49,371 bases of DNA from positions 1 through 49,371 of the forward strand of contig JASMBC010000005.1 in the NCBI GenBank assembly GCA_030754035.1. Direction: 5' to 3'. The translations under genes were made by a program, and so were the position numbers. The notes under the pieces are model-generated. The model did no database searches and was not told where the DNA came from. It saw only the letters and a list, made by a program, of their open reading frames with translations. Below are positions 2,399 to 7,702 of the stretch, one piece after another (the stretch's first letter is position 1; each line of letters starts with the position of its first letter). The stretch comes from Arenicellales bacterium. Lineage in GTDB: Bacteria > Pseudomonadota > Gammaproteobacteria > Arenicellales > UBA868.

Positions 2399-2848
2399 TT
2401 AGCCGGGTTTATGACGCAACTTTGCGGCTACAAAATCCTTTTGCGGTATGTGCAACAGACGCTGTATCTTGCGCATCAAATGCAGTTCGTGATCATCGAG
2501 GCGCCCGTCAGCATAGACTACCCGCCACATCTGTTCGACCAGGGTCAGCCGCTGCTGCTCGCTCCAGTGCTTGTTGATCAGCGAGGTGAACCCGTGCAGG
2601 CCGGTGGCCTCTTTTGCCTGGGACTCAGCCAACGCCAACAAGGCCTTTGAATCCACATCGCTCAATGAGAACTGACTACACACCAGAGCGTGTATTGTCG
2701 CCCTCTCTGTATCGCCTAGATCGTAGTCCGCCATCGCAGTCTCAAACAGTAATGCTGCTGCGGCCAGACGCAAAGGTTCCTCCACAGCCAAAGGATCATC
2801 GCGCGATTGAAGTCGCTTGCGAAAAAACTCCCCAATTGCGTCAATCAT
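2399..2848 (-). CDS. TerB-like helical protein
   Basis: A 149-residue, all-helical acidic protein without signal peptide or membrane segment. It resembles the TerB/COG4103 family: an N-terminal FF-K-RL start, a first repeat around FETAMADYDLGDTE (about 36-49), and a second acidic repeat around VVYADGRLDDHELHLM (about 109-124). The D-G-x-x-D-x-x-E pattern of the second repeat is typical of the metal-binding TerB fold. Function is unknown for most single-domain members; tellurite resistance should not be assumed because no other ter gene is nearby. It lies downstream of the terminator that ends the upp operon. Confidence 0.7.
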   Translation of the reverse strand: MIDAIGEFFRKRLQSRDDPLAVEEPLRLAAAALLFETAMADYDLGDTERATIHALVCSQFSLSDVDSKALLALAESQAKEATGLHGFTSLINKHWSEQQRLTLVEQMWRVVYADGRLDDHELHLMRKIQRLLHIPQKDFVAAKLRHKPG

Positions 2849-2970
2849 ATGATCTGTAACCCCACCTTTGAACCGCGCATTCTAATCTTACTAAGGGAAA
2901 AGCGCGTAAAACAGCTAAATGAGGCACAAACATGCCAAGAAGGGGGTCACAGTGAGTCCTGTGAATCGGC

Positions 2971-3003
2971 AAAAAAAGGGCGGAACCCTGGCGGGTGCCG
3001 CCC
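2971..3003 (-). terminator. Intrinsic terminator on the minus strand
   Basis: Read on the minus strand, GGGCGG (3003-2998) pairs with CCGCCC (2983-2978) across a 14-base loop. Seven T residues follow (2977-2971). It can end the upp-3133 operon and would also form the 3' end of the small RNA proposed just upstream. Confidence 0.75.
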
Positions 3004-3033
3004 CTAACTCCACATTTAATGGAGGAGATATGC
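2971..3033 (-). ncRNA. Candidate FNR/Anr-dependent small RNA
   Basis: A perfect FNR-type box (3068-3081) is centred 41.5 bases before position 3033, the class II activator geometry. At the expected -10 position the minus strand reads GTTAAT (3045-3040), 4 of 6 matches to consensus. The predicted transcript of about 63 nt begins near 3033. It carries CTCCTCC (3027-3021), complementary to Shine-Dalgarno sequences, then a small CTCCA/TGGAG hairpin, and ends at the intrinsic terminator with seven U. This arrangement resembles known anaerobic sRNAs such as FnrS or PhrS in logic, not in sequence. No coding frame is evident. Read-through from upp is an alternative origin for the terminator. Confidence 0.4.
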
Positions 3034-3067
3034 AGGCGTATTAACCCATACCACCCTATTAACCGTA

Positions 3068-3081
3068 TTGATCCAGATCAA
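3068..3081. promoter_or_regulatory. Perfect FNR/Anr-type box
   Basis: TTGATCCAGATCAA matches the FNR/Anr consensus TTGAT-N4-ATCAA at every defined base. It lies in the non-coding gap between the terB-like gene and the small exported protein, not next to any protein start. On the plus side it faces the 3' end of a convergent gene, so the minus-strand transcript ending at 2971 is the likely target. Confidence 0.65.
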
Positions 3082-3132
3082 TATTTTCGATTTCTGAAAA
3101 ATACCCATAACGGCCCAAGTAACCGCGGCGCT

Positions 3133-3468
3133 CTAAGGAGCCTTCAGCATACAAGTTTCGTCCTGACTATCACGCTGGCTGTCGTAGCGCATTTCACAAA
3201 TGATCACCTGGCCAGATTTTTCCAACCGGTAGTCGGTGACAGAAACAATACGCCACAATTCAGCATAGGGGGCAATCCCGGGATGACGTTCGTTTCTTTC
3301 AGTGATTGCAGTGACCTGCCAACCCTGGCGGGTCAGGCCATAAACACCCGCTTCGAGCGGCTGTGCCCAACTGATGCTGGTGAGTACGCCGACCAGAAAG
3401 AAAGTGAATGCTGTAGGAGCTCTCCTGCTAACCCGGGATACGACCCGCGGCAGGCAATTGGCGATCAC
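3133..3468 (-). CDS. Small exported protein of unknown function
   Basis: A 111-residue protein starting with GTG just four bases after the upp stop, so probably translated by coupling with upp. Residues 16-36 form a hydrophobic signal peptide ending near SWAQ, giving a mature periplasmic protein of about 75 residues. The mature part holds two cysteines that could pair. I recognise no domain; small proteins of this kind are often labelled hypothetical. The weak ribosome site leaves the exact start open. Confidence 0.55.
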   Translation of the reverse strand: MIANCLPRVVSRVSRRAPTAFTFFLVGVLTSISWAQPLEAGVYGLTRQGWQVTAITERNERHPGIAPYAELWRIVSVTDYRLEKSGQVIICEMRYDSQRDSQDETCMLKAP

Positions 3469-3471
3469 GCC

Positions 3472-4104
3472 CTAGCGAGTGCCATAAATCCGGTCACCCG
3501 CATCGCCCAGACCAGGCAGGATGTAGCCATGATCATTCAGTTGGCGGTCCAACGCCGCTGTATAGACTGGAACATCAGGGTGAGCCTGGGCAAATGCAGC
3601 AACCCCCTCGGGAGCAGCCAGCAGGCAAACAAACTTGATCTTTTTGGGCTGATCCTTTTTCAGACGAGTGATAGCGGCGCTCACAGAATTGGCGGTTGCC
3701 AGCATCGGATCCACCACAATCACCTGACGTTCGTTAATATCATGAGGCACCTTGTAGTAATACTCGATGGCTTCCAGGGTATCCGGATCACGATACAAGC
3801 CGATATGCCCCACCCGGGCTGACGGTATCAGATCAAGCATACCGTCCAGCAGGCCATTGCCTGCGCGCAGCACCGAGACAAAACACAGTTTCTTGCCGGA
3901 CAGCATAGGCGCCTGCATGGTCTCCAGTGGCGTTTCAACCTCTCTTAGTTCTGTCGGCAGATCGCGCGTGACTTCGTACGCCAGCAACAGTGCGATCTCG
4001 CGCAGCAGCTGGCGAAAGTTTGCGGTGGGCCGGGTTTTATCCCGCATTAAGGTGAGCTTGTGCTGCACCAGCGGATGGTCAACTAAGGTGAAAGATTTCT
4101 GCAT
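3472..4104 (-). CDS. upp: Uracil phosphoribosyltransferase
   Basis: Converts uracil and PRPP to UMP in pyrimidine salvage, in the cytoplasm. The 210-residue length equals the family norm. The PRPP-binding loop [13 protein letters not shown] is at 128-140 and the uracil-binding segment [13 protein letters not shown] at 193-205, both intact. It is followed by a small exported-protein gene after four bases and then by the minus-strand terminator at 2971-3003, so the two genes form a short operon. No uracil permease gene is adjacent. Confidence 0.96.
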
Positions 4105-4928: not shown

Positions 4929-4950
4929 GTGGACAACTAGATTCTAGGTG

Positions 4951-5037
4951 TTATCCGACGGGGTGTCCGACAGAGGTCGGGCTGAGAATGACCCGTTGAA
5001 CCTGAACCGGATCATACCGGCGGAGGAATTCGGATAA
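4951..5037 (+). promoter_or_regulatory. TPP riboswitch (THI element)
   Basis: The conserved blocks GGGGTGTCC, GGGCTGAGA, ACCCGTTGAACCTGA and CCGG..ATACCGGCGGAGGAA appear in the right order. The closing helix P1 is a perfect 8-bp pairing of TTATCCGA (4951-4958) with TCGGATAA (5030-5037). It senses thiamine pyrophosphate and lies directly before thiB, so it should repress the thiamine transporter when TPP is plentiful. Confidence 0.96.
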
Positions 5038-5075
5038 TGGCGTCAAAGCCCCTCCGCCCTTCAGTTCCGAAGGAG
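5019..5075 (+). promoter_or_regulatory. Riboswitch expression platform with alternative pairing and SD hairpin
   Basis: GGCGGAGG in the aptamer core (5019-5026) is perfectly complementary over 8 bases to CCTCCGCC (5051-5058) just downstream. CCTTC (5058-5062) can pair with GAAGG (5069-5073), which is the Shine-Dalgarno of thiB. TPP binding would hold 5019-5026 in the aptamer and allow the downstream segment to sequester the SD; without TPP the 8-bp pairing would break the aptamer and open the SD. There is no U-tract, so control is probably translational. Confidence 0.65.
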
Positions 5076-5081
5076 CCTTAC

Positions 5082-6092
5082 GTGAAAATTCTGAAGATTC
5101 TTTTTGGCCTTGCAGGCTGTTTGCTGGCGATTGCCTGCCCTGCAACACAAGCGGCAAAGACTCAGCTGACGGTCTACACCTATGCCTCGTTTGTATCCGA
5201 GTGGGGCCCTGGCCCACTCATTGAAGAGCATTTCGAGGCACAATGCGATTGTGATCTAAAGTTTGTCGGTCTGGAGGATGGTGCCGCCTTACTCAGCCGG
5301 CTGAAACTCGAGGGGGATCGCTCACCGGCAGATGTCATTCTTGGGTTGGATACCAGCCTGACCGCTGAAGCCCAACAAACAGGACTGCTGCAAGAACACG
5401 GGTTAGATCTGGAATCGGTCGACTTTGCCCTACCCTGGTCCGACCTGGTCTTTGTGCCCTATGACTTTGGCTACTTTGGCTTCGTCTACGACAGCGAGGC
5501 ACTTCCCATCCCGCCGGCCAGTCTTACGGAACTGGTCAATAACAGTAACGGGCCGCGTATCATCATCCAGGATCCCCGCACCAGCACCCCGGGACTGGGG
5601 CTTGTGCTGTGGATGCGCAAAATATTCGATGCGGCTGACGAGGATGCCTGGGCCATGCTGGCGCCCCGAATTGTGACTGTGACTAAAGGCTGGTCGGAAG
5701 CCTATGGACTCTTTCTTAAAGGCGAGGCACCCATGGTACTGAGCTACACCACCTCCCCTGCCTACCACCGCCATGTAGAACAGACAGATCGCTACCGCGT
5801 AGCCATGTTCAAAGAGGGGCATTACCGACAGGTTGAAGTCGCTGCCCGGTTGGGCACTTCGTCCGAACCACAACTGGCGCAGGACTTTCTGGGTTTTCTG
5901 CTTTCGGACACAGTGCAAAATATCCTTCCCACCTCTAACTGGATGCTACCAGCAGTGCATACAGGGCAACCCCTGCCCGATGCCTTCCACAGTGATGAAG
6001 TGCCACAGCAGATGCTCCGATTCGATCCGGCGCAGGTGCAAGATCAGCGCAAACAATGGATAAATCGCTGGCTGTTTGCATTGTCACGTTGA
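5082..6092 (+). CDS. thiB: Thiamine ABC transporter substrate-binding protein
   Basis: Periplasmic thiamine/TPP-binding component of ThiBPQ. With the GTG start at 5082 (AAGGAG 6-7 bases upstream) the 336-residue protein begins MKILKILFGLAG with a clean signal peptide cleaved near ATQA (about residue 24), then the family start QLTVYTYASF. The body matches the ThiB/TbpA extracellular solute-binding fold, with the typical VPYDFGYFGFVYD and PRTSTPGLG segments. An in-frame ATG at 5037, on the last base of the riboswitch P1 helix, would add 15 residues before the signal peptide and is less likely. It is first in the thiBPQ operon. Confidence 0.93.
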   Translation: MKILKILFGLAGCLLAIACPATQAAKTQLTVYTYASFVSEWGPGPLIEEHFEAQCDCDLKFVGLEDGAALLSRLKLEGDRSPADVILGLDTSLTAEAQQTGLLQEHGLDLESVDFALPWSDLVFVPYDFGYFGFVYDSEALPIPPASLTELVNNSNGPRIIIQDPRTSTPGLGLVLWMRKIFDAADEDAWAMLAPRIVTVTKGWSEAYGLFLKGEAPMVLSYTTSPAYHRHVEQTDRYRVAMFKEGHYRQVEVAARLGTSSEPQLAQDFLGFLLSDTVQNILPTSNWMLPAVHTGQPLPDAFHSDEVPQQMLRFDPAQVQDQRKQWINRWLFALSR

Positions 6093-6097
6093 GCCGT

Positions 6098-7702
6098 ATG
6101 TGGGCCTATCGAGTCATCTCGCTCTGGCCCGGGACCCTGGCCGTGGCCTTTCTGGGTACTCTGATCGGGGGCTCTCTTGTCGGGATAATGGCCCGGTTTG
6201 GCACCGGCGATCTTACGGCAATCGTGACCGATGCCTACTTGCACTCGGTAATAAGTTTCACGCTGTGGCAGGCCACACTTTCAACCCTGATCAGCGTTGG
6301 GCTCGCACTACCGATCGCTCGCGCCTACGCCCGACAGTCCCACTTTGTTGGGCGGCGCGCGCTGATCACATTGATGGGCCTGCCGATGGTCATGCCGGTG
6401 ATTGTTGCGGTTCTGGGTATCGTCGCGATCTACGGTCACAACGGTGTGATTACTCAGTTGATGCGCGCAGCAGGGTTCACATGGTCTTTTGGGATCTATG
6501 GCCTTGGCGGGATACTGCTGGCCCATGTTTTTTTCAACCTGCCGCTGGCGGTGCGATTGTTGCTGCCGGCCTGGGAGCAGGTTCCAGGTGAAAGCTGGCG
6601 CCTCGCCAGCACCCTGGGGATGTCCAGCACTCAGTTGTTCCGATTTATCGAGTGGCCTGCGCTGAGCGCTTTTCTGCCCGGCGCGCTGGTGATTGTTTTC
6701 CTGCTCTGCTTCACCAGTTTTGCGGTCGTATTGACCCTTGGCGGGGGGCCTGGAGCAACCACAGTTGAAGTGGCGATTTATCAGGCACTGCGCTTTGACT
6801 TCGATCCCGGCCGGGCAACGCTGCTTGCCCTGACTCAACTGGCGCTATGCGCAACAATTGCGCTGACCATGTCTCGATGGCTGCGCTCGCAACCGCTAAC
6901 CCAGGGGCTGCAAAAAGGCCTACGAAACCGACCCGACCGAAACGCCCTACTCAATCGAGCTGTAGATGTCTTGCTGATCACGCTGAGTGCGCTCTTTATC
7001 GGTTTGCCCATCGCGGCGGTTGTTGTTGCCGGTCTGGAGGGGCCGCTGTTACGGGTTATCCTGGATTCTGCGCTTTGGAGCGCAACCGCACGCAGCCTGG
7101 GGATTGCGCTGATAGCGACACTAACCGCCAGCGTACTGGCGTTGGGTCTGGCGATGACTGCTCGGCGGCTGGTGTTGGTACAGCGGCGGCCTGGGGCCAC
7201 GGACCTGGTGTTGTTGGCCGGCTCGGTAAGTCTCGCGGTTCCACCCATGGTGATTGGCACCGGGCTTTTTCTTTGGGCGCTGATAACCGGCACAACAGAG
7301 GTGGTCACCCTTTTTCTCATAGCATTAATTAACGCACTCATGGTACTGCCCTACGCATTGCGCAGCATTGCTCCAGTTCTGATCGACTCAGGACGGCGCC
7401 ACCACAAACTGTGTGAACAACTGGGCCTGCAGGGCTGGCAGCGATTTCGCCGCATCGACTGGCCTGCTATACGCAAACCGACAGCGTTTGCTGTGGCGCT
7501 GGGCAGCGCGTTGTCATTTGGAGATATGGGCGTAGCAGCACTCTTTGATACCAGCGGTGCAATAACACTGCCGGTCATGCTCTACCACCGGATGAGCGCC
7601 TACCGCTTCGATGAAGCTGCCGTTACCGCACTGGTACTCGTTGTGATGAGTATGATTTTATTCTGGGCCCTGGATCGGATTGTAGGGCGATGGCTTTCCT
7701 GA
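6098..7702 (+). CDS. thiP: Thiamine ABC transporter permease
   Basis: A 534-residue inner-membrane protein with two homologous halves of about six helices each, like E. coli ThiP. Each half has an EAA-type loop that docks on the ATPase, around WRLASTLGMSS and CEQLGLQGWQRF, both followed by a WPA motif. The ATG at 6098 lies just after the thiB stop and gives the family length; an in-frame ATG at 6056 inside thiB has no ribosome site. The 3' end overlaps thiQ by 13 bases. Confidence 0.92.
   Translation: MWAYRVISLWPGTLAVAFLGTLIGGSLVGIMARFGTGDLTAIVTDAYLHSVISFTLWQATLSTLISVGLALPIARAYARQSHFVGRRALITLMGLPMVMPVIVAVLGIVAIYGHNGVITQLMRAAGFTWSFGIYGLGGILLAHVFFNLPLAVRLLLPAWEQVPGESWRLASTLGMSSTQLFRFIEWPALSAFLPGALVIVFLLCFTSFAVVLTLGGGPGATTVEVAIYQALRFDFDPGRATLLALTQLALCATIALTMSRWLRSQPLTQGLQKGLRNRPDRNALLNRAVDVLLITLSALFIGLPIAAVVVAGLEGPLLRVILDSALWSATARSLGIALIATLTASVLALGLAMTARRLVLVQRRPGATDLVLLAGSVSLAVPPMVIGTGLFLWALITGTTEVVTLFLIALINALMVLPYALRSIAPVLIDSGRRHHKLCEQLGLQGWQRFRRIDWPAIRKPTAFAVALGSALSFGDMGVAALFDTSGAITLPVMLYHRMSAYRFDEAAVTALVLVVMSMILFWALDRIVGRWLS

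Follow-up and report, generated by a model that had tools for sequence, protein, structure and literature searches.

Oxygen-responsive small RNAs (sRNAs) are known from few lineages. In enteric bacteria FnrS, an sRNA that ends at a terminator, is activated by FNR in the class II arrangement, from a site centred at -41.5, and is described as confined to the Enterobacteriaceae (PMC3032703). The FnrS, or AniS, RNA of Neisseria is also small and FNR-activated, with a predicted class II box and a terminator (PMC3032703). NmsRA and NmsRB are short sRNAs with anti-Shine-Dalgarno (anti-SD) motifs that lower the translation of TCA-cycle genes (PMC5362039). The double-hairpin RNAs of Rfam family RF02278, the Betaproteobacteria toxic sRNA family that comprises ncS03, ncS05, ncS27 and ncS62, have CU-rich parts complementary to ribosome-binding sites (RBS), and their predicted targets belong to transport and metabolism (PMC5688073, PMC11722255). 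These RNAs are reported to block ribosome-binding sites. Overexpression of one of them slows growth (PMC5688073), and Bordetella S17S, whose 5' end is similar to that of the double-hairpin RNAs, directly represses a target (PMC11722255).

Here we describe a candidate oxygen-responsive sRNA from uncultured marine bacteria, found in a stretch of 49,371 nucleotides assigned to an Arenicellales bacterium (the window). From sequence comparison we consider it likely that the locus is a new FNR-activated sRNA gene of Arenicellales-type marine bacteria, whose product would act in trans and repress several mRNAs. The promoter and the RNA are compact and well defined. The FNR box, TTGATCTGGATCAA (3068..3081, minus strand), is the sole exact match to the FNR pattern in the window, over the whole of which 1.3 boxes are expected by chance if one mismatch is allowed. 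An extended -10 element, TGGGTTAAT (3040..3048, minus strand), includes the hexamer GTTAAT at 3045-3040, and its TAAT is invariant in the aligned members. The transcription start is predicted at 3033 on the minus strand from a box at -41.5 together with this -10, the centre of the box lying 41.5 bases from that position. An earlier note on this DNA had proposed a perfect box at class II distance from 3033 with GTTAAT as the -10, and our analysis bears out both points, the pattern match being exact and the hexamer belonging to a -10 of the extended type. With a box near -41.5 and a -10 the locus has the layout of FNR class II activated sRNAs, the start itself being predicted.

The predicted transcript is about 63 nt long (2971..3033, minus strand). 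The minus strand from 3033 to 2965 folds at -30.2 kcal/mol (z = -3.5, with none of 200 shuffles as good), and the predicted fold has a small hairpin and then a strong terminator that is rich in GC and has seven U at its end, in agreement with the earlier note. The intrinsic terminator with its U7 tail occupies 2971..3005 and the small hairpin, hairpin 1, occupies 3008..3024, both on the minus strand. In the window's fold hairpin 1 is formed by CUCCAU/GUGGAG; the alignment favours a shifted register beginning at CUCC 3027-3024, and hairpin 1 is less certain, since the register of the consensus is not that of the single folds. Further towards the 5' end the alignment shows a near-invariant block, CCTGCATATCTCCTCCAT (3019..3036, minus strand), within which lies the anti-SD motif CTCCTCC (3027-3021, minus strand). 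This motif had been described as exposed; it is present, but it is only partly exposed, as the minimum-energy fold places its last four bases in the 5' side of the small hairpin's stem and leaves GCATATCTC as the fully single-stranded portion. Conservation within the RNA is highest in CCTGCATAYYTYCTCCA, which is complementary to a ribosome-binding site: the complement gives the SD sequence GGAGG, four bases and ATG (TTG in three relatives). This RBS-complementary block therefore suggests pairing over the Shine-Dalgarno sequence and start codon.

When 61 genomes were searched at the DNA level, matches to the region came from six further genomes of the family and from another locus in the window's own assembly, and a covariance model built from these loci enlarged the set within the family, giving 15 loci after inspection. 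The reading in the earlier note had been made to depend on conservation of the unit from box to terminator in relatives. Our results show that the whole unit (box, -10, anti-SD block, hairpin and terminator) is kept at all 15 loci, in 13 genomes of genus g3 and on two contigs of the window's assembly. The loci are of type A (the window, G014, G021, G025, G026, G029, G018 and contig C59) or type B (G003, G011, G019, G020, G028, G031 and G032). The start of the box is exactly 38 bases upstream of the TAAT of the -10 in 14 of the 15, and box-to-RNA spacing is the same to the base in just as many. The fifteenth locus, in G028, has a decayed box with one half-site retained; the anti-SD block of this copy (L041) is altered as well, and it is perhaps a decaying copy. 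Since other species have the complete unit at an unchanged spacing, we regard it as more than a chance arrangement.

Over the 15 loci the half-sites of the box reach 1.6 bits per column, as does the -10 region, and the 5' part of the RNA has 1.55; the sequence upstream of the box has 0.55 and the spacer between box and -10 has 0.9. The flanks diverge while the box halves and the RNA stay conserved. Across the structure as a whole 94.8% of cells are paired, compared with 44-62% when it is slid, and three pairs of the terminator are changed on both sides. The covariation score is 0.284 against 0.201 in shuffles, with none of 500 shuffles as high, and is to be read as support and not as proof, since the loci come from one family, so that their conservation is partly non-independent and kinship inflates such scores.

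The window's contig, C81, is 99% identical over 2.7 kb (5037-7702) to G014, a genome of another genus. The second sRNA locus of the assembly (G000) is on contig C59. Over 5037-7702 of the window this contig and the genome G001, which belongs to the same genus as G000, give matches of identical score and coordinates (68%). The window was therefore probably misbinned into G000, and its contig is probably that of a G014-like organism contaminating the assembly. We accordingly claim no duplication, that is, no two paralogous copies within one genome. The sRNA occurs in at least two genera. Several assemblies of these bacteria appear to derive from an oxygen-deficient inlet, which for the SI060 and SI074 genomes, judging by their names, is probably Saanich Inlet.

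At every one of the 15 loci the sRNA unit is located between the same two genes. In the window a small gene of unknown family encoding 111 aa (3133..3468) lies upstream and a terB-like gene (2399..2848; PF05099, E 6.7e-31) downstream, both on the minus strand like the sRNA, and upp, encoding uracil phosphoribosyltransferase (3472..4104, minus strand; TIGR01091, NF001097), lies beyond the small gene. The 111-aa product has no match in Pfam or NCBIfam; it has a possible signal peptide, and several genera of the family keep its gene in front of terB. In relatives without the sRNA (for example G022, G023, G002, G005 and G012) the small gene and terB are adjacent, and the gap between them has no FNR-like box. 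Elsewhere in the window a TPP riboswitch (RF00059, 69.9 bits; 4949-5046, plus strand) overlaps the start of an ORF resembling an ABC transporter substrate-binding protein and is followed by a permease-like ORF (6056-7702); these ORFs probably encode a thiamine transporter.

Model searches of the rest of the order (109 genomes) and of the class (369 genomes) yielded nothing convincing. The order-level match in G063 appears to be coding and was discounted. The class-wide matches, 17 besides the window's own genome and 11 of them with loci, were taken as terminator look-alikes: none of the 11 has a correctly placed FNR box, and CTCCTCC is nearby in one (L114). Scanning 84,980 species with a pattern likewise gave nothing convincing, the matches in Acinetobacter and Clostridiaceae lacking the full unit and being taken as chance, and no phage-borne copy was found among viral contigs.

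The constant position of the unit suggests another explanation, namely that it is an FNR-controlled cis leader of terB and that the short RNA is the premature-termination product of an attenuator. Each of the 15 copies is followed immediately by terB, which has the same orientation, and in six of the seven type-B genomes the distance from the terminator to the start of terB is 32-36 nt, which leaves little room for a further promoter; because terB is always next, and so close in these genomes, we allow this reading a small but real chance. In type A, however, the gap is 121-139 nt and contains TTAGAAT, or in G025 TTAAAAT, which may be a -10 belonging to terB itself. Inspection of the alignments by eye revealed no obvious antiterminator pairing, the strongest conservation is in the 5' anti-SD block and not before terB, and the terB genes of many relatives are without such a leader. 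It is far less probable that the structure only terminates the upp/small-gene operon and that the FNR box in front of it is due to chance. A terminator is indeed expected after the small gene, which ends at 3133, but between diverging flanks the box, the -10 and the 5' block keep both their sequence and their distances, relatives without the unit lack every part of it, and the unit is also present on C59 of G000, where no upp is seen beside the small gene. Hardly credible is an FNR-controlled small-protein gene or dual-function RNA, for although some members have an ATG after the anti-SD block, the frames are tiny and variable (M-W-S-stop in the window, M-N-D-R-G-S-stop in C59 and G018), the hairpin loop is of variable length and the transcript contains no complete minus-strand ORF of at least 20 aa.

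We therefore return to a separate, trans-acting sRNA gene. The new anaerobic sRNA put forward in the earlier note gains support from its conservation, the two-sided terminator changes, the clean empty site of relatives, the FNR proteins of five carriers and the absence of any Rfam family at threshold. These five sRNA-carrying relatives (G003, G014, G018, G021 and G032) encode an FNR with the cysteines of an Fe-S cluster in the form CxxCx5C (CRDCxLAELC) and with the recognition helix ETVSR (ETVSRLF); the protein of G018, the one scanned, passes the NCBIfam Fnr cutoff (NF008365). In these carriers a box of the form TTGAT-N4-ATCAA should therefore be functional. In the BH10 genome (G032) fnr itself is about 6 kb from the sRNA (L059, 1152-1916, plus strand), with a hemN-like gene beside it.

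From this arrangement we infer transcription, oxygen control, pairing in trans and repression. When oxygen is low, FNR would bind the box at -41.5 and activate the promoter, which would be of class II and has an extended -10. The stand-alone minus-strand gene would then give a transcript of about 63 nt stopping at the intrinsic terminator. Its 5' segment, GCAUAUCUCCUCC(A), part of which lies in the small hairpin, could pair with the SD and start-codon regions of several mRNAs, and this pairing would lower their translation, so that genes unwanted under low oxygen would be turned down.

Possible targets were sought with sequence patterns and by computing duplex energies for 1232 start regions in G018 and 458 in G003. 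The xanthine phosphoribosyltransferase gene xpt ranked first and a class V aminotransferase gene sixth among the 1232 start regions sampled in G018. The RBS of the aminotransferase gene, GGAGGATTTATGC, is kept in six type-A carriers and is absent from the orthologues of type-B and sRNA-free relatives. The gene for a family 3 amino-acid binding protein carries GGAGGATGTATGC or GGAGGAAGTATGC at its start in several genomes, of type A as well as type B; two genomes where no sRNA was found have almost the same start. We regard these three genes as weakly supported candidate targets. Against the 1232 start regions the real 5' arm pairs no better than shuffled arms, so that the list of targets counts for little statistically. 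A 16-base complement common to several genomes, AATGGAGGAGATATGC, was rejected; it is inside a methyltransferase coding region and not at a start.

The control logic of the sRNA, with FNR acting from -41.5, is that of enteric FnrS, but the sequence and length differ. Rfam includes models of FnrS and of PhrS from Pseudomonas. A permissive Rfam scan of the sRNA locus lists 12 families, none of which reaches its cutoff there, and neither FnrS nor PhrS is among them. The likeness to FnrS and PhrS drawn in the earlier note thus holds for the control logic and fails for the sequence. The Neisseria FnrS/AniS RNA, at about 111 nt, showed no sequence match to the sRNA described here. The best permissive match, which spans the entire model (1-64 of 64), is to RF02278 with 26.5 bits (E 0.001); G021 gives 27.8 bits and G014 27.5, against a cutoff of 50. 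The length is similar and the architecture the same, with a 5' UCUCCUCCA, hairpin 1 and a U-tailed terminator hairpin; however, RF02278 is betaproteobacterial, whereas our sRNA is gammaproteobacterial and located beside terB behind an FNR box. RF02278 relatives on plasmids were searched for FNR boxes and none was found, and FNR control is not described for these RNAs in excerpts of PMC5688073 and PMC11722255. NmsRA and NmsRB (RF02877) score 16.6 bits against a cutoff of 52, form a tandem pair and are not known to be FNR-driven. The alphaproteobacterial AbcR1/2-type and mmgR sRNAs have a CU-rich anti-SD motif, and transporter mRNAs are among their known targets. Their family, RF00519, gives 17.7-20.9 bits, and both promoters and lineage differ.

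By the tests made, the sRNA is a member of neither FnrS nor RF02278, and a distant kinship with RF02278 is possible. We suggest only tentatively, as a somewhat improbable reading, that it is an RF02278-type, RBS-mimicking double-hairpin sRNA under direct FNR control, which on the loss of oxygen would cover the SD and start codon of selected transporter, aminotransferase and purine-salvage mRNAs. If the sRNA acts as proposed, FNR-driven sRNAs would arise repeatedly with unrelated RNA bodies, and the betaproteobacterial double-hairpin sRNAs might be tied to oxygen control. Taken together, the comparisons suggest an sRNA with the expression of FnrS and the mode of action of the double-hairpin or NmsR sRNAs.
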